DNA of 10,578 nt from NCBI GenBank assembly GCA_016217585.1, contig JACRHQ010000066.1, positions 1 to 10,578 on the forward strand, in the 5' to 3' direction. This document shows, one piece after another, positions 1,337 through 10,349 of this stretch; within the stretch, counting starts at the first letter, position 1, and every line of letters begins with the position of its first letter. The position numbers and the translations under genes are program-made. Origin of the DNA: Candidatus Omnitrophota bacterium. GTDB taxonomy: Bacteria > Omnitrophota > Gorgyraeia > Zapsychrales > Zapsychraceae. The notes below the pieces were generated by a model, which saw only the letters and a list, made by a program, of their open reading frames with translations, had not been told where the DNA came from and made no database searches.

Positions 1337-2026
1337 TCATTTTTGAATGTGCTTGAGTATCTCATCCACCGTCCCGTTGACCGTCAGAGGGGTCGTGTCG
1401 ATCACGACCGCGTCCTCAGCCACTTTCAAAGGGCCCACGGTACGGGTAAAATCCTTGTGGTCTCTTTCCTTTAATTCCGTTTTAAGGTTCTCATCGTCGA
1501 CCTTTTTGCCCCTGGCCTTCAGTTCATCGATGCGCCGGCGGGCGCGCTCCTCAAAGTCGGCGTCGAGATAAAATTTATGGGAGGCTTTCGGGAAGACAAC
1601 CGTCCCCACGTCGCGGCCTTCGATCACAACGCTTTTTTGCGATCCAATTTTCCTCTGCCACCCGACCATGATCTCCCGCACGCCGGGCGCGCGCGCGATA
1701 TAAAACGTCTTGTTGGTGACCTCGGGGGACCGGATCGGTTCGCTCACGTCCTCCCCGTCCAGGAACACCTGGACCCCGTCGCGACCGTTCTCCATCCTGA
1801 TGTCGGTCCGGCGGGCCAGATCGACCAGCGCCTGCTCCTGCTCCAGGCCGGTCCCCGAACGGATCGCCTTTAAGGTCAACGCCCGGTACATGGCCCCTGT
1901 GTCCAGATAAAAGATCCCCAGGCGGCGGGCCAACTCTTTGGCCACGGTGCTTTTCCCGGCTCCGGCGGGGCCGTCGATGGTGATCACTTCCAGATTCTGC
2001 GCCACGGCTTTTGTTCTTTGTGCCAT
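1337..2026 (-). CDS. cmk: Cytidylate kinase
   Basis: This enzyme phosphorylates CMP and dCMP with ATP, giving CDP/dCDP for RNA, DNA and phospholipid precursors in the cytosol. The protein is 229 residues, the usual size. The P-loop GPAGAGKST is at residues 19-27. The nucleotide-binding segment LDTGAMYRA is at 41-49, the family motif EGRDVGTVVFP at 136-146, and an arginine-rich lid RARRRIDE at 161-168. It starts at an ATG 6 bases after the tyrA stop with no strong Shine-Dalgarno, so translation is probably coupled to tyrA. In many bacteria aroA sits between tyrA and cmk; here nothing does. The N-terminal dozen residues before the first beta-strand are a little long but unremarkable. Confidence 0.97.
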   Translation of the reverse strand: MAQRTKAVAQNLEVITIDGPAGAGKSTVAKELARRLGIFYLDTGAMYRALTLKAIRSGTGLEQEQALVDLARRTDIRMENGRDGVQVFLDGEDVSEPIRSPEVTNKTFYIARAPGVREIMVGWQRKIGSQKSVVIEGRDVGTVVFPKASHKFYLDADFEERARRRIDELKARGKKVDDENLKTELKERDHKDFTRTVGPLKVAEDAVVIDTTPLTVNGTVDEILKHIQK

Positions 2027-2032
2027 TCTGGT

Positions 2033-2887
2033 TCAGGAGATGGAATCGCGTTTTTCCCTGGCCCTGCTGAAGAATTGGACCAGGTTCTTTTGATCGCGCT
2101 GGCCAATGGTCTTGCGCAAAAAAGCCAGCTGCTTGACCAGGGCGTCCAGCGTCTGCAAGATATTCTTGGAATTAGCCACGCAGATGTCGTTCCACATCTG
2201 GGGAGAAGAAGCGGCGATGCGTGTGGAATCTTTAAGCCCCTGCAGCGCGTAGCCCAGGGATTCCCTGGGGATGGATTCCATCAGGGCATAGGCCAAAAGA
2301 TGCGGCAGGTGGCTTACCTGGGCCAGGATCTTGTCGTGGTCTTCGGGAGATAGAAACTCGACCTGCGCGCCGAGCTTGGTCCAGAGAAATTTGATTTTCT
2401 CCCTGGCAACGGGGCTTGTTTTTCCCGTCGGGGTCATGATGCAGCGCGTGTTCTCGAAAAGCTCGGCGCTGGCGTTCTCGACCCCGGTTTTCTCGGAGCC
2501 GGCCAACGGATGCGAGCCGACAAAAAGCCCCGGCGCGGACAGCGTACTCTCTGCCCTCGAGGCGATCTCTTCCTTGGCACTGCCCATATCCGTGACAAGA
2601 CATCCCCGGCGCAGATAAGGGTTGATCAAGGACAACTGCTGGAGGATCGTTTGCACCGGGGTCGCGAGGACGACAAGATCTGCGTTGACGATCCCTTTTT
2701 GCAGATCCATGGAACCGGAATCAATGGCCCCGGCATTGATCGCCTTGTCGAGCGATTCCTGCCGGTGCGAAACGCCGACCACCCCCTGGGCGAGCCCGCG
2801 CTTTTTTAAAGCCAGGCCCAGAGATCCCCCCATTAAGCCAACGCCGACAATAGTCACCTGCCTGAAAAGATGTGTCCGTGATAACAT
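2033..2887 (-). CDS. tyrA: Prephenate dehydrogenase
   Basis: This enzyme oxidatively decarboxylates prephenate to 4-hydroxyphenylpyruvate in the tyrosine branch. The protein is 284 residues. An N-terminal Rossmann fold shows the dinucleotide motif VGVGLMGGSLGLAL (14-27). The catalytic-histidine block GSHPLAGSEKTG is at 124-135 (His126). The helical dimer domain carries VSHLPHLLAYAL (191-202) and the substrate-binding segment LKDSTRIAASSPQMW (218-232, Arg223). There is no C-terminal ACT domain and no fused chorismate mutase, so tyrosine feedback, if any, must act elsewhere, possibly on the upstream DAHP synthase. The ATG at 2887 has an overlapping AAGGAG whose first bases belong to the aroF stop codon 8 bases upstream. 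NAD or NADP preference cannot be settled by eye. Confidence 0.96.
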   Translation of the reverse strand: MLSRTHLFRQVTIVGVGLMGGSLGLALKKRGLAQGVVGVSHRQESLDKAINAGAIDSGSMDLQKGIVNADLVVLATPVQTILQQLSLINPYLRRGCLVTDMGSAKEEIASRAESTLSAPGLFVGSHPLAGSEKTGVENASAELFENTRCIMTPTGKTSPVAREKIKFLWTKLGAQVEFLSPEDHDKILAQVSHLPHLLAYALMESIPRESLGYALQGLKDSTRIAASSPQMWNDICVANSKNILQTLDALVKQLAFLRKTIGQRDQKNLVQFFSRAREKRDSIS

Positions 2888-2895
2888 AGCTCTCC

Positions 2896-3915
2896 TTAGA
2901 TTTCCCGGGAAACTGCCGCGGCGATTTTCTTTAAATCTTTCATCAAAGCTTCGAATTTCTCGGGCTTCAGCGACTGCGGCCCGTCCGACAACGCCTCCTC
3001 CGGGTTCTCGTGGACCTCAATCATCAACCCGTCGCATCCGGCGGCGACCCCCGCCTTGGCCGCGCTGGCCACCAGGTCCCACTTGCCCGTCGCGTGGCTC
3101 GGGTCGACGATGACCGGCAGGTGCGATAATTGTTTGACCACGGGGATGGCGTTGATATCCAGGGTGTTGCGCGTGGCCGTCTCGAAGGTCCGGATGCCGC
3201 GTTCACATAAAATGACGTTAAAGTTTCCGTTGGCCAGGATGTATTCGGCCGACATGAGCCACTCCTTGATGGTCGCACTGATCCCGCGTTTGAGCAAGAC
3301 CGGTTTGTGAACTTTTCCCACTTCCTTAAGCAAGGAAAAATTCTGCATGTTGCGGGCGCCTATCTGCAGGATGTCGGCATACCGGCAAATGAGCCCCACG
3401 TCGCGCGGGTCCATGACTTCGGTGACGGTCGCCAGGCCGCATTCGCGTCCGGCCTCGGCGAGATATTTCAACCCCTCCTCGCCCAAGCCCTGAAAATCAT
3501 ACGGAGAGGTCCGCGGTTTGAACGCCCCGCCGCGCAGGACCGTCGCCCCGGCCTTTTTGACCTTGTGGGCGATGGCGAGAATCCCCGCCGCGGTTTCCAC
3601 CGAACACGGCCCGGCCATAACATGGATGCGCGACGTCCCGCCGACCTGCACGCGGTCGTTAATCTTGATGCCGGAATCTTCCTTCTTAAACTCCCGCGAG
3701 ACAAGCCGGTAAGGCGACAAGACGGGGAGCACCCGCTCGACGCCGGGAAACACTTCCAGCGGCGTGACCTGAAGGACGTCCTCCGGCCCGATGAGGCCGA
3801 TGATCGTCCTCTCCACGCCGCGGGAGATGTGGGCTTTTAGTCCCAATTTTCCCGTCTTCTCAAGGATATGGTTGATCTGCGCTTCGGTTGCGTCCGATTT
3901 CAAAATAATGATCAT
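2896..3915 (-). CDS. aroF: 3-deoxy-7-phosphoheptulonate (DAHP) synthase, type I-beta with N-terminal regulatory domain
   Basis: This enzyme condenses phosphoenolpyruvate and erythrose-4-phosphate to DAHP, the committed shikimate step. The protein is 339 residues. Residues 1-70 form a ferredoxin-like domain of the kind found in the Thermotoga maritima enzyme, where it confers inhibition by aromatic amino acids. The TIM barrel carries AGPCSVE (101-107), [17 protein letters not shown] (127-143), [10 protein letters not shown] (184-193), LLKRG (207-211), CERGIRTFE (237-245) and DPSHATG (271-277). Expected metal ligands are present: Cys104, His274, Glu300 and Asp311. The ATG at 3915 has a strong AGGGGAG at 3921-3927. 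It lies 18 bases after hisC and 8 before tyrA. The product name is firm; the gene symbol is by convention, since names for this family vary. Confidence 0.96.
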
Positions 3916-3933
3916 AGGATCTCCCCTAAAATA

Positions 3934-5019
3934 TTAAAGGGCGGCCTTCAGAGCGTTCAAAAAACGCTCATTTTCCGCCGCGGTCCCGATCGTAACCCGG
4001 ATAAAACGATCCAACCCCCAGCCGCGCATGTCCCGCACGATGACGCCCCTGGACAACAGCGTCCGGACAATACGGGAGGCGTCCCGGCGCATATCCATTA
4101 GAACAAAATTGGTGCAACTTTCAATATATTTTATCCCCAATTTCCCCAGCCCCGCGTAAAGCGCCTCGCGCTGGCGCCCGACCTCACCGGCCAGCTTCTG
4201 ATAATACGGGCGGTCATTGAGGCACGCCAGCGCCGCCGCCTGCGCCAGCGAATTGACGTTGAACGGCTCGCGGACGCGGTTGAGGCAATCGACGGTCTCC
4301 TCATCGCCGATCCCGTAGCCGACGCGCAACCCCGCCAGACCGTACATTTTCGAAAACGTGCGGGTGACGAGGATATTCTTGTGCCGTTTTAACAAACCGA
4401 TGGCATCGACGTAGTCCGGGGCCTGGACGTATTCATGGTACGCCTCGTCGATGAAGATCAAAATATCCCGGCGCAGCCCTTCCAGGAAACGTTCAACCTG
4501 TTTCTGCGTGAAGTATTGTCCCGAAGGGTTGTCCGGGTTGCCCAGAAAAATGATCCGCGTCTTTTTGCTGACGGCCTTTTTCATCCCTTCCAGGTCGTAA
4601 CGAAAATTTTTTAAGGGGACGGCCTTCACCCTCGCGCCGGCGATCGTCGCGGCGATATCATAGATAAGGAACGAGGGCCTCGCGATAATGACCTCATTGC
4701 CGGGACGGATGAAGGTCCGCGCCGCCAGGACGATGATTTCATCGGAGCCGTTGCCGAAGATTAACTGCCGGGGAGAAATGTTAAGACGCCGGGCGAGCGC
4801 CTGGCGCAGGTAGTAACAATCCCCGTCGGGGTAGCGGTTGACTTGCCGGGCTTCCTTCCTGATGGCCGCGACGGCCTTCGGGGACGGGCCCCACGGGTTC
4901 TCGTTGGAGGCGAGCTTGATCACATCCTTCAAGCCCAGTTCCCGTTTGACTTCATCAATGGGCCTGCCCGGCACATAAGGCTGGATTTTGAAAATCGTCT
5001 TTTGGGCGAATCGGCGCAT
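3934..5019 (-). CDS. hisC: HisC-family PLP aminotransferase, likely serving aromatic amino-acid synthesis
   Basis: This is a fold-type I PLP aminotransferase of 361 residues, full length for histidinol-phosphate aminotransferase. Visible features are ASNENPWGPSP (37-47) near the N-terminus, NRYPDG (61-66), FGNGSDEII (88-96) for PLP phosphate, NPDNPSG (161-167), the cofactor aspartate in FIDEAYHEY (189-197), the PLP lysine Lys224 in TFSKMYGLAGLRVGY, and a C-terminal RVTIGT with the substrate-carboxylate arginine. It sits between pheA and aroF, so I infer that it transaminates phenylpyruvate and 4-hydroxyphenylpyruvate. HisC paralogues are known to do this; in Bacillus subtilis hisC lies in an aromatic operon and serves both pathways. 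It may also, or instead, act in histidine synthesis. No histidine gene is nearby. The start lies 7 bases after pheA with no clear Shine-Dalgarno. Confidence 0.93.
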   Translation of the reverse strand: MRRFAQKTIFKIQPYVPGRPIDEVKRELGLKDVIKLASNENPWGPSPKAVAAIRKEARQVNRYPDGDCYYLRQALARRLNISPRQLIFGNGSDEIIVLAARTFIRPGNEVIIARPSFLIYDIAATIAGARVKAVPLKNFRYDLEGMKKAVSKKTRIIFLGNPDNPSGQYFTQKQVERFLEGLRRDILIFIDEAYHEYVQAPDYVDAIGLLKRHKNILVTRTFSKMYGLAGLRVGYGIGDEETVDCLNRVREPFNVNSLAQAAALACLNDRPYYQKLAGEVGRQREALYAGLGKLGIKYIESCTNFVLMDMRRDASRIVRTLLSRGVIVRDMRGWGLDRFIRVTIGTAAENERFLNALKAAL

Positions 5020-5026
5020 CGGTCGG

Positions 5027-6088
5027 TTAATCCATGACCGGGTAAGACCCGATCACTTTCAAATATTTGCACATCCCCTCAAGCTGCCCCAGCGCCTTTT
5101 GGACGTTCTTGTCCATCCGATGCCCCTCAAAATCGACGAAGAAATAGTAATCCCAGGCTTTTTTCTTGGCCGGGCGCGATTCGATCTTTGTCAGATTGAT
5201 CTTGTTTTTCACAAAGGGCGTGAGCATCGCGTGCAGGGCCCCTACCTTGTCTTTAATCGAGAACAAAATGGTTGTCCGGTCCCGTCCTGTCGCAGGGACA
5301 TCATGGGTAGCCAAAACCAGGAAGCGCGTCGTGTTGTGGGCGATATACTGGATGTTGGTCCTGACGATGGGGATTCCATAAATCCTGGCCGCCAGGCTCG
5401 AGGCGATGGCCGCGGCCCCCTTCTCCTTCCTGGCGCATCTGGCCGCCTCGGTCGTTGAAGCCACCCAGATATGCCCCGCCCGGGGCACGTTCTCCAGCAG
5501 CCAGTTCCGGCACTGTCCAAACACCTGCGGGTTCGAATAAATACGCCGGATATCCCTGATATCCCGCGCGCGCGACAAAAGGCTGTGAGAGATCTTCATC
5601 AGGATCTGGGCGCAGGCCTTCAGCTCGGAGTCGACGAGAAGGTCAAACGTCGTGGTCACCGCCCCCTCGATGGAGTTCTCGACAGGCACGACGCCGTAAT
5701 CGCAGTCGCCGTATTCGACCTTCTGGAACACCTCCGGGATGCTCTCACAGGGAACATACGTCACCCGCGAACCGAATTTTTTGTTTGCCGCCAGATGTGT
5801 GTGGGAACCTTCCGTGCCCAAATACGCGATCCGCAAAAATTTTTCCAGGGCGAGCGAACTCGACATAATCTCCCGGTAGATCGCCTCAAAGTCCTCGTAG
5901 CTCATCGGCCCCTTATTAAGGGCCCGGATGCGCTTGAGTATTTCCTTCTCTCGATGGGGCGAATAAATGCCCTTGCTGTTCTTGATTTTTTCCTTGCCGA
6001 TGGCAAGGCTGATCCTGGCCCGCCGGTTAAGCAAGGCCACCATCCGGTTGTCGATAGCGTCAATTTTTTTACGCAGACTGTTGAGCAT
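5027..6088 (-). CDS. pheA: Bifunctional chorismate mutase / prephenate dehydratase with ACT domain
   Basis: This enzyme converts chorismate to prephenate and then to phenylpyruvate for phenylalanine. From the chosen start it is 353 residues. Residues 1-80 are an AroQ-type chorismate mutase helix bundle (LRKKIDAIDNRMVALLNRR, then SPHREKEIL). Residues 86-265 are prephenate dehydratase with YLGTEGSHTH (89-98), VPVENSIEGAVTTT (134-147) and the signature HNTTRF (251-256). Residues 275-353 are an ACT domain with GALHAML (283-289) and ESRP (303-306), the phenylalanine-binding motifs, so product feedback is expected. The frame opens at a GTG at 6118, but the ATG at 6088 is preferred: it has AGGA closely upstream, and the mutase fold begins there. 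This start overlaps the last 20 bases of scpB, implying translational coupling. Confidence 0.96.
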   Translation of the reverse strand: MLNSLRKKIDAIDNRMVALLNRRARISLAIGKEKIKNSKGIYSPHREKEILKRIRALNKGPMSYEDFEAIYREIMSSSLALEKFLRIAYLGTEGSHTHLAANKKFGSRVTYVPCESIPEVFQKVEYGDCDYGVVPVENSIEGAVTTTFDLLVDSELKACAQILMKISHSLLSRARDIRDIRRIYSNPQVFGQCRNWLLENVPRAGHIWVASTTEAARCARKEKGAAAIASSLAARIYGIPIVRTNIQYIAHNTTRFLVLATHDVPATGRDRTTILFSIKDKVGALHAMLTPFVKNKINLTKIESRPAKKKAWDYYFFVDFEGHRMDKNVQKALGQLEGMCKYLKVIGSYPVMD

Positions 6089-6812
6089 TGTTTTCCTGAG
6101 CTTCCTGGAGCAGTTCACCGGGGCTTGCAGCCGCCACGCGTACAGCTTCTCCCTGGAGGGTTGGTTGTGCTTCCACGGGCGCAGGGCCGGAGCCGGCAGA
6201 TCCAGTTTCGCCGGTTTCCGTTCCTGCCTGGCCGGAAGGCAGTTCGGCCGCCGGTGTCAGCGTCGGGAACTCTTCCAGTTTGGGCAAATCATCAAGAGAT
6301 TTAAGCCCGAAATATTCCATGAACTGTTTGGTCGTGCCGTAAAGAAAAGGTCTGCCGGGCACGTCTTTTCGTCCGACGGGTTTGACAAGCTCCTTGCTTA
6401 AAAGGTGCGCGATCACCCCGTCGGAATTGACCCCGCGGATGAGTTCCACGTCCGTGCGCGTGACAGGCTGTTTGTAAGCGACGATGGCCAGCGTCTCCAG
6501 CGCCGGCTTGGATAACTTTTCCTTATGTTTGGTCTTGTAGAAATCACGGATATAGGAGGCGTAACCGGGACTGCTGAGCATCTGGTAGCCGCCGGCGATC
6601 TCGACGATACGTATGCCGCTTTGCCTTTGCCCGTATTCCTCGATTAAAGCCTGGACGGTGTCCTTGATCTCGGCGACGCCCGGCGCCCCCAGCACGCGCT
6701 TGATCTGCTCGAGGGTCACCGGCTTCTCGTTGACAAACAGCAATGCCTCCACGACGCCTTTGACATGCCTGCTTTGTTCTAAATCTCTTCCGTTGAGCGT
6801 TTGGTCTGTCAT
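6069..6812 (-). CDS. scpB: Segregation and condensation protein B (ScpB) with long low-complexity tail
   Basis: This is a kleisin-partner subunit of the SMC-ScpAB condensin, which compacts and segregates the chromosome. The two winged-helix domains span roughly residues 15-90 and 98-172. Family signatures include VVEALLFVNEKPVTLEQI (20-37), GGYQMLSSP (74-82), LSKPALETLAIVAYKQPVTR (100-119), IRGVNSDGVI (125-134) and GRPFLYGTT (153-161). The well-conserved part ends near residue 183. A further 64 residues rich in Pro, Gly, Glu and Ala look disordered, making this longer (247) than a typical 180-200 residue ScpB. Part of the tail, LPSGQA, is encoded by the palindrome at 6224-6242. The start overlaps the ruvA stop as ATGA. 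ScpA is not in the window. Confidence 0.95.
   Translation of the reverse strand: MTDQTLNGRDLEQSRHVKGVVEALLFVNEKPVTLEQIKRVLGAPGVAEIKDTVQALIEEYGQRQSGIRIVEIAGGYQMLSSPGYASYIRDFYKTKHKEKLSKPALETLAIVAYKQPVTRTDVELIRGVNSDGVIAHLLSKELVKPVGRKDVPGRPFLYGTTKQFMEYFGLKSLDDLPKLEEFPTLTPAAELPSGQAGTETGETGSAGSGPAPVEAQPTLQGEAVRVAAASPGELLQEAQENNAQQSA
6224..6242. repeat. Short palindrome inside the scpB tail
   Basis: The minus strand reads CTGCCTTCCGGCCAGGCAG. It has 6-base arms CTGCCT/AGGCAG around a core containing CCGG and GGCC. It encodes LPSGQA in the low-complexity tail of ScpB. It resembles the CTGCC...GGCAG palindromes that recur in genomes of some uncultivated phyla, but with one copy here it may be chance. 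Confidence 0.4.
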
Positions 6813-7486
6813 GTCCGTCTTTCGTTTGAGGTTACCCCCGCGCCGGCCGTTGAAACGCCGGGGCGGATCTTCTGGTTATAAATTTCGTTCAACAATTCCT
6901 CGGCGCTGCGGATCCCCTTGACCCGGTCCAGTGTTTTCTGGACCATCTCCCTGGCCTCGTGACGCTTGTACTGGAGCTGCAGGAGGACCTCAAGCGCCTC
7001 CTCCTGCCAATCAGAGACCTCTTTCCCTGAAACCGGGATCTTTTCCTTGTCCTGCATCAGGGCGAATTTACCGATTTTTCCCTGAAGTTTGGCGACGATC
7101 TCTTTGGCCTTCTGGACGCCGATCCCGGGAAGGGTCTTGAGATATTCGATGTCTCCCGCGTGGATGGCACGGGTAATTTCCGAGATGGGTTTGTCCAGCG
7201 CCTTGACCGCCGCGCGCGGGCCTATCCCCGAGACTTTAATAAACTGCAGAAAAAAATCTTTCTCAATTTCATTGATAAAGCCGATCATGGTCGGGATCCC
7301 CGATGACGGGGTGATCTGAAGGTAATGATAAATGACCAGATGGACATCTCCCTGGGCGTCTTTGGTCTCCTCCACGCTCGCCAGGACAAAGGCCGGCACC
7401 ATGATCTCATAACAAACGCCGTGGACGTTGACAATGAGCGAATGGTCCTGCTTTTCGACGAGTTTTCCCGTGATTCGTGCGATCAT
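6809..7486 (-). CDS. ruvA: Holliday junction branch-migration protein RuvA, with atypical pin region
   Basis: RuvA binds four-way junctions as a tetramer and loads the RuvB motor. The protein is 225 residues. Domain I (OB fold, 1-65) begins MIARITGKLVEK and continues LIVNVHGVCYEIMVP. Domain II has two helix-hairpin-helix motifs: FIKVSGIGPRAAVKAL (82-97) and LKTLPGIGVQKAKEIVAKL (116-134). Domain III (158-203), which contacts RuvB, contains WQEEALEVLLQLQYKRHEA. After it comes a 20-residue tail with no counterpart in typical RuvA. The stretch ITPSSGIPT (58-66) occupies the place where Escherichia coli RuvA has REDAQ with its acidic pin (Glu55, Asp56), and no acidic residue is present there. The start overlaps the ruvC stop as ATGA. 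RuvB is not in the window. Confidence 0.95.
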   Translation of the reverse strand: MIARITGKLVEKQDHSLIVNVHGVCYEIMVPAFVLASVEETKDAQGDVHLVIYHYLQITPSSGIPTMIGFINEIEKDFFLQFIKVSGIGPRAAVKALDKPISEITRAIHAGDIEYLKTLPGIGVQKAKEIVAKLQGKIGKFALMQDKEKIPVSGKEVSDWQEEALEVLLQLQYKRHEAREMVQKTLDRVKGIRSAEELLNEIYNQKIRPGVSTAGAGVTSNERRT

Positions 7487-7965
7487 ATCCTTCGGCAGTG
7501 CAGATGAATATATCCCAACGCCAGGGCCAACGCGACGCTCGCGTCCAGAGTCAGCTTGTTTTCATCGACGCCGAGGGCCTGGCCGACCACCCGGCGCACC
7601 TGCAACTTGGAGGCGCTGCCGTTTCCGGTCAGGGCCTGGCGGATGCGTTTGACGCTGTGCTCGACCAATCCCACATCTTTCTGCGCACACACAAGACAGA
7701 TAACGCCGCGCACATGCCCCAGGATACTGGCCGTCGTCGGGTGGTTATAATGCGCGTACAATTTCTCAAGGACAAGGACATCGGGGCGGTGTTGGTCTAC
7801 CACCTCGTTGAGCGAGACATAGATTGTCTTGATACGGTTCTGGATAAAATCTTTTTGCCTGGGCTCTATAGTCCCGGTCTCCAGCAGCCTGATCCTGCCG
7901 GCCTCAAATTCCACCATACCATAACCGGTCGCCTTCAGGCCCGGGTCGACGCCGAGGATTCTCAT
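7483..7965 (-). CDS. ruvC: Crossover junction endodeoxyribonuclease RuvC, last catalytic Asp replaced
   Basis: RuvC resolves Holliday junctions by symmetric cleavage with an RNase H-like fold and two metal ions. The protein is 160 residues, a normal core length. Asp7 lies in GVDPGLKATGYG (5-16) and Glu67 in VLVLEKLY (63-70). DNA-binding lysines lie in HSVKRIRQALTGNGSASK (103-120). Asp141 lies in LTLDASVALALAL, aligned by eye with Escherichia coli ADAADALAIA (Asp138 and Asp141). The fourth catalytic position is Val144 (codon GTC at 7536-7534) instead of aspartate; a single A-to-T change from GAC would produce it. The rest of the protein looks intact, so the enzyme may be impaired, may rely on three carboxylates, or the base may be wrong. 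The ATG overlaps the yebC stop as ATGA, and the stop overlaps ruvA. Confidence 0.94.
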   Translation of the reverse strand: MRILGVDPGLKATGYGMVEFEAGRIRLLETGTIEPRQKDFIQNRIKTIYVSLNEVVDQHRPDVLVLEKLYAHYNHPTTASILGHVRGVICLVCAQKDVGLVEHSVKRIRQALTGNGSASKLQVRRVVGQALGVDENKLTLDASVALALALGYIHLHCRRI

Positions 7966-8717
7966 TTTTCCTGGGTGATCTTCTCCATTTCCTCATCAGG
8001 GATGTCAAAATTGGCGTACACGTTCTGGACGTCTTCCTGATCCTCCAGCGCCTCCATGAGCGACAACAGCGATTTGGCCCCTTCGCCGACGACACGGATA
8101 TAGCTGCTGGGCAGCATCGTCATTTCAGCCGTCGCGACCGGGATACCTTTGGCCGTGATGGCGTCCTTGACCTTCTGGAAGCTGGCGATATCGCAGGTGA
8201 TCTCGTAACTCTGTCCTTCGGACTTGATGTCCTCGGCCCCGGCGTCGAGGGCAATCTCCATCAACGTTTCCTCGCTGGCCTTGTCTTTTTCGATGGTCAA
8301 AAATCCTTTTTTGCTGAAGAGATACGACGTCGCGCCAGGCCCGGCCAAAGAGCCGCCTTTTTTGGAGAGGATATTGCGGATCTCCGCGGTGGTTCTATTT
8401 TTGTTATCCGTCAGAGCATCGATAAGCATGGCCACACCGCCTGGGCCATACGCGTCAAATGTCGCACTTTCATAGACAACTCCCGGAAGTTCACCGGTTC
8501 CCTTTTTAATGGCATTCTCAATATTAGACTTTTGCATGTTAATGCCCTTAGCACGCTCGATGGCCGCTCTTAAGCGCACGTTAGTATCGACATTTCCGCC
8601 GCCGTCTTTGGCCGCCGCCGTAATCTCGCGGATCATCTTGGTGAACGCCGCACCGCGCTTTGCGTCTTCAGCGCCTTTTTTATGTTTAATTTTTGCCCAT
8701 TTTGAATGACCTGACAT
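7962..8717 (-). CDS. yebC: YebC/PmpR (TACO1) family protein
   Basis: This protein belongs to the YebC family. It has been described as a DNA-binding regulator and, more recently, as a translation factor that relieves ribosome stalling in TACO1 and YebC homologues. The 251 residues are full length. The N-terminus MSGHSKWAKIKHKKGAEDAKRG is diagnostic. FTKMIREITAAAKDGGGN, YGPGGVAML (90-98) and TDNKNRTTAEIRNI (103-116) are further family blocks, and GGSLAGPGATSYLFSKKG (121-138) precedes domain 3. The start has GGAGGA at 8726-8731 with 8-base spacing. It lies about 40 bases downstream of the rnpB 3' end with no terminator between them. It is the first gene of the ruvC-ruvA-scpB run; yebC-ruvC adjacency is common in bacteria and fits this assignment. 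Confidence 0.97.
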   Translation of the reverse strand: MSGHSKWAKIKHKKGAEDAKRGAAFTKMIREITAAAKDGGGNVDTNVRLRAAIERAKGINMQKSNIENAIKKGTGELPGVVYESATFDAYGPGGVAMLIDALTDNKNRTTAEIRNILSKKGGSLAGPGATSYLFSKKGFLTIEKDKASEETLMEIALDAGAEDIKSEGQSYEITCDIASFQKVKDAITAKGIPVATAEMTMLPSSYIRVVGEGAKSLLSLMEALEDQEDVQNVYANFDIPDEEMEKITQEK

Positions 8718-8725
8718 GACTTGAT

Positions 8726-8731
8726 TCCTCC
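8726..8731 (-). promoter_or_regulatory. Strong ribosome-binding site of yebC
   Basis: GGAGGA on the minus strand, 8 bases before the ATG at 8717. It is the strongest Shine-Dalgarno match in the window and marks yebC as a site of independent initiation after the non-coding rnpB. The genes after it depend largely on stop/start overlap. Confidence 0.8.
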
Positions 8732-8757
8732 GTCTTCTACCACTGATTTAATCGAAA

Positions 8758-9194
8758 TGAAAAGCAGGCCAATAAGCCGGGTTCTGTCCTCTCTTCAAAC
8801 GAAGAGAGCGATGGTTATTCAACTGACTCCAGAGATTGCTCTCCCCTGTACCCTGTCGGGTTGAGGGTCTCGCCTTTCGGCTCGACGGACTCTTGCGGCC
8901 TACCCGGGAATTCTGACGAGGCGGATCACCTCGTGTCCTGGCCAAGCCTTACGCCCTCTGCCCTATGCCAATGACTCTTCCCCTATACGGCCTTGCTCCA
9001 TGCAGAGATTGCTCGTTTCACTTGCCTGCTTGCGCGGCAGGCAACTCGTCTCTGTAGCTCTGATCTTCCAACCCTTGCCTTTGATCCAGGAAAAGGGGAG
9101 GAACCTTGAGTTAACAAGGTGCATCATCCTTCGGAGCCCGGACTTTCCTCCGCGCCGTTATCAAACAGCGTGGCAACCATCCCGGCCTGCTTTT
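8758..9194 (-). ncRNA. rnpB: RNase P RNA, bacterial A-type architecture
   Basis: This is the catalytic RNA that removes 5' leaders from pre-tRNAs. It is recognised by conserved cores on the minus strand: CR-I GAGGAAAGTCCGGGCTCC (9150-9133), ACAGAGA downstream of it, GGAGCAAGGCC followed by TAGGGG (8999-8980), GGGTAGGCCGCAAGAG (8905-8890) and CR-V ACAGAACCCGGCTTA (8787-8773). Helices can be drawn. P1 pairs AAAAGCAGGCC (9194-9184) with GGCCTGCTTTT (8770-8760). P2 pairs GATGGTT (9181-9175) with AACCATC (8816-8810). P3 is a compact 7-pair hairpin with a TGAT loop (9170-9153). P12 has arms TTGCCTGC/GCAGGCAA. A P19 hairpin with arms CTCTCTTC/GAAGAGAG lies at 8808-8789. Termini are set by P1 and are good to a few bases. 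The first 71 bases overlap the end of the RNase HI gene. No terminator follows, so 3' processing is likely. Confidence 0.97.
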
Positions 9195-9597
9195 TGTTTA
9201 TATTGTGCAAAGAGCTGGTAGCTAACTTGTCCGCTTCTTTGTTCTTTTCGCGGGGAACGTGGACCAGTTCAACGTTCGCAAAACCGCGTTTGAGCTGCTG
9301 GACCTGGTCGTAAAGAAACTTCAACTTCTGGTCTTTAACTTTATAGCTTCCGGTGAACTGATGGAACATCAGTTCACTGTCCGTGGAAATTTTCACCCGT
9401 GCCGCCTTGAGGACCAGCGCCTCCTGCAGGGCGCAGATCAGCGCCGAATATTCGGCGATATTGTTGGTCGCCTCGCCGATCGGCCTGGAAATCTCGGCGA
9501 TCGTTTTCCCGCCGCGCTTGATCACCACACCGATCCCCGCCGGCCCCGGGTTGCCGCTGCAGGCGCCGTCGACAAATATCTCAAGCACAGTGCTCAT
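9124..9597 (-). CDS. rnhA: Ribonuclease HI family protein whose 3' end overlaps rnpB
   Basis: RNase HI cleaves the RNA strand of RNA-DNA hybrids such as R-loops and Okazaki primers. From the ATG at 9597 the protein is 157 residues; a TTG one codon upstream also opens the frame. The catalytic carboxylates are present: Asp10 in FVDGACSGNPGPAGIG, Glu49 in NNIAEYSAL, Asp73 in STDSEL and Asp123 in NKEADKLA. The family domain ends near residue 130. Residues 135-157 (KKQAGMVATLFDNGAEESPG and on) are the translation of the 5' end of RNase P RNA, so they are probably not under protein-level selection. The sequence matches the short, reverse-transcriptase-like RNase HI subgroup (RVT_3). The gene starts 26 bases after the zinc-ribbon protein gene with only a weak GGTGG as ribosome-binding site. 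Specific substrate preference is unknown. Confidence 0.94.
   Translation of the reverse strand: MSTVLEIFVDGACSGNPGPAGIGVVIKRGGKTIAEISRPIGEATNNIAEYSALICALQEALVLKAARVKISTDSELMFHQFTGSYKVKDQKLKFLYDQVQQLKRGFANVELVHVPREKNKEADKLATSSLHNINKKQAGMVATLFDNGAEESPGSEG
9197..9202 (-). promoter_or_regulatory. Possible -10 element for rnpB inside the RNase HI gene
   Basis: TATAAA on the minus strand (codons for Asn-Ile-Asn of RNase HI) ends a few bases before the start of P1, which is the spacing expected if transcription begins at the RNase P RNA 5' end. The candidate -35, TTAGCT with a 17-base spacer, is poor (3 of 6). The call is tentative; RNase P RNA may instead be processed from the upstream transcript. 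Confidence 0.35.
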
Positions 9598-9623
9598 CAA
9601 TGGCCACCCGCGGCTTCAAAGGG

Positions 9624-10349
9624 TCAAAGATCATCTTCAATATACAGGATCCGCTGGCATATCTCGCAGACGACAAACTGGTCGTGCATCTTGATGGCGT
9701 TGATCGTCTGGGGGTTCACGTTCATGTAGCAGCCGCCGCACGAATTGTCTTTGACCGGGACGATCGCCAGACCGTTTTTATGGGCTAAAACTTTTTCATA
9801 CCGCTCCAGCGAGACCTTGTCCATCCCCGGGAGCAACTGCTTGCGCTGGGAATCGAGGACCTTGACACGGTCCTGGATGAGCATCATTTCCTCTTCCAGT
9901 TTCTTCTTTTGCGCCAGATATTGCTTCTCCTCGCCCTCGACGACCGTTTTTTCTTTGGCAACGTCTGCCTGCACGGCGTCCGCCTCGTCATACGAAACAA
10001 GTATCTTTTCTTCAATGATCGATTTGTCGGCCTTGATGCTGGCGATCTCCGTCATCTTGGCCTGGTACTCCTTGTTGGTCTTGATCTGCGAAAGCTGGCC
10101 GTTGGCCTTGACGATATTGTCTTCCTTGGCTTTAAGGTCGAGCTCCAGTTCCTTGCGTTTGAGCTGGACACCTTTAAGCTTCTCTTCCAGTTTAAGGAGG
10201 TGCGCCTTGCCTGCCTCAAACTTTCTTTTCAATTCCTCGATCAGCGCCGGTTTTTCGGTCAACTCGATTTTAAAACGGTAAATTTCTCCGTCGAGCTTCT
10301 GCAGGTCGACAAGCCTCTTTACCTGGTCTTTAACGGAGATCTCCGGCAC
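9624..10349 (-). CDS. Coiled-coil protein with C-terminal C4 zinc ribbon (DUF164/CT398-like)
   Basis: The protein has 241 residues. Residues 5-175 are almost entirely charged heptad-rich helix (many Lys, Glu, Leu and Gln), consistent with a long antiparallel coiled-coil hairpin. At the C-terminus CGGC (204-207) and CEIC (228-231) form a four-cysteine zinc ribbon. This architecture matches a widespread bacterial family that includes Chlamydia CT398 (CdsZ). Nucleic-acid binding is often annotated, and a role in type III secretion or sigma-54 contacts has been reported in Chlamydia. Its role here is unknown. No signal peptide or membrane segment is seen, so it is cytosolic. The start codon is GTG, supported by AAAGGA at 10358-10363 with 8-base spacing. 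Genes of this family often neighbour RNase H genes, as in actinobacteria. Confidence 0.9.
   Translation of the reverse strand: MPEISVKDQVKRLVDLQKLDGEIYRFKIELTEKPALIEELKRKFEAGKAHLLKLEEKLKGVQLKRKELELDLKAKEDNIVKANGQLSQIKTNKEYQAKMTEIASIKADKSIIEEKILVSYDEADAVQADVAKEKTVVEGEEKQYLAQKKKLEEEMMLIQDRVKVLDSQRKQLLPGMDKVSLERYEKVLAHKNGLAIVPVKDNSCGGCYMNVNPQTINAIKMHDQFVVCEICQRILYIEDDL

Follow-up and report, generated by a model that had tools for sequence, protein, structure and literature searches.

Overlaps in which the 3' end of a coding gene and a structured RNA share one strand are known, both where coding genes run into tRNA genes and where small RNAs lie at mRNA 3' ends. Catalytic RNAs are usually thought to require a sequence of their own. 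Among the matches listed from the open-licence literature (subscription journals and preprints lie outside it), we recognised no description of a protein gene running into rnpB, the gene for RNase P RNA, and the relevant passages of PMC10117765, PMC6582537 and PMC5217408 describe no such overlap. One of these reports that, judged by Ribo-seq, the rnpB RNA of Sinorhizobium meliloti does not seem to be translated (PMC10117765). Here we describe a locus at which the RNase HI gene rnhA continues into rnpB and ends at a stop codon inside the ribozyme. The whole stretch of DNA analysed, 10,578 nucleotides from the draft genome, 61% complete, of an uncultured bacterium of the Omnitrophota, is referred to as the window, and the features on which the analysis draws are as follows.

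7962..8717, minus strand: yebC-type gene, directly 3' of rnpB (Pfam)
8757..9193, minus strand: rnpB, class A RNase P RNA (RF00010 match)
9124..9126, minus strand: TGA that ends rnhA within the RNase P RNA, 24 nt beyond where CR-I begins
9124..9193, minus strand: rnhA/rnpB overlap of 70 nt (RF00010 bounds and ORF; kept in relatives)
9124..9597, minus strand: rnhA, RNase HI (ORF; Pfam RVT_3 E 6.9e-24, RNase_H E 2.3e-16)
9150..9173, minus strand: P3 hairpin, entirely within rnhA codons (cmscan structure line; covariation)
9175..9181, minus strand: P2 5' strand, within rnhA codons (covariance-model alignment)
9183..9193, minus strand: P1 5' strand, within rnhA codons (cmscan structure line)
9197..9202, minus strand: TATAAA, a proposed -10 box, unsupported as a promoter (sequence; sigma-70 type scan)
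9624..10349, minus strand: gene for a C4 zinc-ribbon coiled-coil protein, directly 5' of rnhA (Pfam Zn_ribbon_9 E 5.9e-12)

The rnhA–rnpB junction in the window

A cmscan search returned a complete RF00010 match at 9193–8757 (model positions 1–367), which scores 152.6 bits (the gathering score being 100) and is the sole RF00010 match in its genome at E ≤ 0.001. With a full-model score over the cut-off, a P1 helix and a P3 hairpin, the predicted transcript has the features of a class A RNase P RNA. The rnhA frame is open on the minus strand from 9600 to a TGA stop codon at 9126–9124, and the overlap of the two genes is thereby confirmed. The initial annotation, which had described this overlap and called for a covariance-model search to fix its bounds, had given it 71 nt; with the RF00010 5' end at 9193 the overlap stands, at 70 nt. 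Besides the stop codon, it takes in 22 sense codons and the final base of the codon that precedes them. Covariance-model alignment assigns these bases to the parts of the RNA that the initial annotation had named, namely the 5' strands of P1 and P2, the whole of P3 and the CR-I region, GGAGGAAAGUCC; the CR-I motif, GAGGAAAGTC, begins 24 nt ahead of the rnhA stop codon.

The ribozyme fold is intact, in agreement with the earlier reading of the sequence. A perfect helix of 10 bp is possible between the P1 5' strand and the 3' end of rnpB, and every one of the 71 genomes of the window's order with a detected RNA allows a P1 helix (median 10 pairs, lowest 5), a count that takes the best of many registers with no shuffled control and in which the 5' strand is usually made of codons. 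P3 covaries: among 19 distinct sequences of one family (f1) and 20 of another (f7), each position shows several types of pair. Canonical pairs per position number 14–19 of 19 and 17–20 of 20, respectively.

The rnhA product is 157 aa long when started from ATG at 9597 and 158 aa from TTG at 9600. Pfam RVT_3 and RNase_H matches jointly cover residues 6–129, and residues D11, E50, D74 and D124, which we take to be the catalytic acidic residues, are invariant across 33 aligned sequences; with this domain and these four residues, the product is a predicted RNase HI. The best PDB match ends at residue 131. In an AlphaFold2 model, confidence holds up to about residue 130 and is low past that point, with a mean pLDDT of 65, 49 and 45 in its last three blocks and a helix drawn up to residue 147. 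As first proposed, the tail falls outside the RNase H fold, the Pfam match ending at residue 129. The tail is present in only part of the 33 aligned rows, and the low-confidence model does not support a folded tail.

Positions 1337–10349 of the window form a one-strand cluster that includes the zinc-ribbon protein gene, rnhA, rnpB, yebC and Holliday-junction and aromatic amino acid genes; three of its proteins were Pfam-tested, and the other names are readings of ORF translations. Across the order, yebC lies downstream of rnpB in all 70 loci with enough sequence, within 134 nt in 63 of them. The initial annotation had credited rnpB with a promoter of its own, based on the TATAAA hexamer. The hexamer is present and starts 9 nt before the RNA, but a scan of 8600–9700 for sigma-70 type promoters, other promoter types being outside its scope, returned no promoter-like site, and the hexamer is not kept genus-wide, being present by eye in the same-genus genomes G001 and G005 and absent from G003 and G004. 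An independent rnpB promoter of this kind is therefore not supported. Because rnpB lies between rnhA and yebC, and because no coding-strand terminator-like site was found at 8600–9700, co-transcription is the likelier arrangement; RNase P RNA would then be processed from a joint transcript, or might instead arise by weak internal initiation.

Distribution of the overlap within and beyond the order

We searched 81 genomes of the order, of which 71 gave an RNase P match and 10 did not; in one of the latter (G014), which stands outside the counts, a locus identified through rnhA has the same junction. In all 71 genomes with a detected RNA, rnhA immediately precedes rnpB on the same strand. The rnhA frame enters the RNA by at least 30 nt in 63 of the 71 and by at least 60 nt in 57, ends at or before the first RNA base in 7 and in between (under 30 nt) in 1. 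The overlap of at least 30 nt has members in all seven families of the order set, and 51 of the 71 genomes stop at the same codon of the RNA, 24 nt past the CR-I start. The junction in relatives, which the initial annotation had named as the comparison to make, thus bears the overlap out. It had also reasoned that relatives in which rnhA ends before P1 would speak against the overlap; seven such genomes exist, alongside the 63 that overlap by at least 30 nt. As 8 of the 71 members keep both genes without a deep overlap, the overlap is dispensable rather than essential. Set against 8 of 63 genomes in the rest of the class, none of 42 in other classes and the conserved phase described below, a same-strand overlap of coding sequence and RNA has been kept across related species beyond chance.

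Several members of the order carry P3 insertions (G003, G039, G054, G022, G035, G028, G040 and G021), with lengths of 40–82 nt versus 18–23 nt. The rnhA frame stops inside the insertion in G003, G021, G022, G028, G039 and G054.

Outside the order, we examined an even draw of 145 genomes from the class and phylum, 127 of them with an RNase P match. Of 65 genomes from the class but not the order, 64 retain the rnhA–rnpB pair, and the junction was measured in 63 of the 65, leaving out G064 (no rnhA upstream) and G158 (no CR-I motif). In 39 of these 63, rnhA does not extend beyond the first RNA base; in 16 it ends at 2–29 nt and in 8 at 30 nt or more. None of the 63 uses the stop codon site shared within the order, which is thus specific to the order relative to the class genomes examined. 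Among 45 genomes of other classes, no rnhA was found upstream of rnpB within at most 1,500 nt of sequence, five of them offering under 700 nt upstream to inspect; two of the 45 have rnhA downstream of rnpB. None of 42 other-class genomes with at least 400 nt upstream had any frame on the strand of the RNA that stayed open through 100 codons before it and for its first 30 nt.

We also considered loci from named genomes, 40 of 80 of which were scanned for RNase P RNA, with a match in 21. rnhA followed by rnpB also occurs here in records not labelled Omnitrophota, with overlaps of -12 (L088), -300 (L087), -1 (L092), -217 (L108), -37 (L114), +42 (L100) and +68 (L074). L100 (2001–2501), a MAG labelled 'bacterium', has its 42-nt rnhA–rnpB overlap with a different sequence after CR-I and is possibly a separate case. 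The junctions of L056 (labelled Planctomycetales) and L074 (labelled Elusimicrobia) match those of the order members G004 and G190, respectively, and these labels may be wrong.

Origin and maintenance of the double use

We favour, with a probability of roughly 0.6, a history in which an ancestral rnhA lost its stop codon and the RNA fold, together with selection on the reading frame, has since kept the double use across the order. The ancestor would have had a compact gene row of zinc-ribbon protein, rnhA, rnpB and yebC, and would most simply have lost the rnhA stop codon that relatives in the class usually have near the rnpB start. Translation would then have entered the ribozyme and ended at the RNA's own stop just past CR-I. 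The RNA fold would set most of the shared sequence while selection also maintained the reading frame, and these two constraints would explain why the double use persisted across the order, some members of which are now without the overlap, probably through one gain followed by several losses. The ribozyme may be cut from the joint transcript or depend on weak internal initiation, and the benefit may be proper termination or avoidance of the other frames rather than a folded tail.

Constraint on the frame was assessed on a quick tree of the order built from the RnhA core and YebC, with 33 of 80 inner branches well supported; as outgroup we took from the class the first 12 genomes in which YebC was present as well. 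Relative to this outgroup the order forms a single clade (support 99). The deep-overlap state changes a minimum of 6 times within the order tree, a count that gives no direction. Between the RNase H core and CR-I, the distance underwent at least 34 length changes and 9 phase changes in 70 order genomes, whereas in 612 runs that simulated random indels on this tree and had 32–36 length changes, phase changes averaged 20.5 and never numbered fewer than 13; the simulation pools the short spacer before the RNA with the RNA itself. The rest of the class had 53 length changes and 29 phase changes in 61 genomes (Fisher p 0.014 versus the order); the length counts leave out G204, G112 and G085. The 9 phase changes observed are fewer than in any of these runs, so the frame that leads into the ribozyme has been kept beyond chance. 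P3 length by itself, with 18 length changes and 8 phase changes in 67 order genomes, follows no clear multiple-of-three rule, and we discarded this test as unconvincing, partly because the P2 landmark falls at two places in family f7 and is missing in 4 order and 17 class genomes.

Of the 52 genomes whose rnhA frame reads to the shared site, 51 have a stop codon at it, as do 13 of the 19 others (Fisher p 0.0011); after correction for kinship, no significant link between reading and stop retention was found (median p 0.625 over 9 independent pairs). In the 64 genomes that carry a stop at this site, the codon has changed identity among TAA, TAG and TGA a minimum of 17 times. Openness as far as the stop site is a weak sign of selection, and we set it aside: frame 0 is open in 62 of 71 order genomes, frame 1 in 23 and frame 2, which rnhA uses in only 5, in 54, nearly as many as frame 0, so that the openness comes largely from the RNA itself. 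In the part of the tail encoded by the ribozyme, substitutions had no clear codon-position bias in 14 order pairs (28, 17 and 29 at positions 1, 2 and 3), compared with 20, 15 and 13 in 7 class pairs. Tail codons that differ are synonymous or nonsynonymous in 22 and 40 cases in the order and in 8 and 25 cases in the class.

These observations bear unequally on the other explanations that we considered. If the stop was lost once and RNA constraint alone has kept the frame open, with no selection on the overlap, one would expect what is seen in the two RNA frames that are open in most order members, in tail substitutions without clear protein-level constraint, in a tail modelled at low confidence and in the repeated changes of the deep-overlap state. 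Such a neutral relic is nevertheless hard to square with phase changes that fall below every simulated run, and with a single genome of 52 that reads to the shared site and has no stop there, and we regard it as possible but rather unlikely. The frame might alternatively be kept for the sake of the protein, if the RNA-coded tail (22 residues in the window) functions in RNase HI, for example in nucleic acid binding or as a degradation signal. The conserved frame and the presence of the tail in the order's aligned relatives are compatible with this, but a tail of low model confidence past residue 130, carried by only part of the aligned rows, without a clear codon signal and absent from some order members, makes a protein function very improbable.

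A kept frame would also be expected under regulatory coupling, in which a ribosome finishing rnhA covers P1–P3 and delays folding or processing of the ribozyme, so that RNase P supply is tied to rnhA translation. The geometry is suitable, since a terminating ribosome would sit on CR-I and P3, and rnpB shares one apparent gene row with yebC; the eight order members that have both genes without a deep overlap argue against such coupling, which we consider improbable. It is equally doubtful that a terminating ribosome restrains folding or 5' processing of RNase P RNA on the joint transcript such that supply follows the translational state of the cell, with the frame selected for that purpose. Finally, the window comes from a single incomplete draft, in which a sequencing or assembly error could have removed an earlier rnhA stop; because overlaps of at least 30 nt recur in 63 of 71 separate genomes of the order, the probability of an assembly accident is negligible. 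Stop loss in the ancestor, followed by joint maintenance through RNA fold and selection on the frame, remains the reading that we prefer.

Comparison with known systems

The RNA of the window resembles the class A RNase P RNAs of Rfam RF00010 in giving a full-length match over the gathering score and in being able to form P1 and P3; it differs in that its first 70 nt double as the 3' end of a protein gene. The protein shares the RNase H domain and conserved acidic residues with bacterial and archaeal RNase HI (closest solved structures 3u3g, 4h8k and 3hst), and differs by a tail of about 25 residues past the core, mostly encoded by the ribozyme. An RNase P RNA whose first 70 nt can be read as codons and a stop provides a natural test of the extent to which one strand can serve both a protein and a ribozyme, and the overlap raises the question of how a ribozyme within an apparently translated gene row gets made. 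As in the overlaps of coding genes with tRNA genes or with small RNAs at mRNA 3' ends, one strand here carries both codons and a structured RNA; what sets the present case apart is that the structured RNA is the ribozyme of RNase P and that most members of an order share the overlap. Across the genomes compared, the rnhA–rnpB overlap is a genuine double use of sequence, widely conserved and specific to its lineage, within this known class of coding/RNA overlaps.
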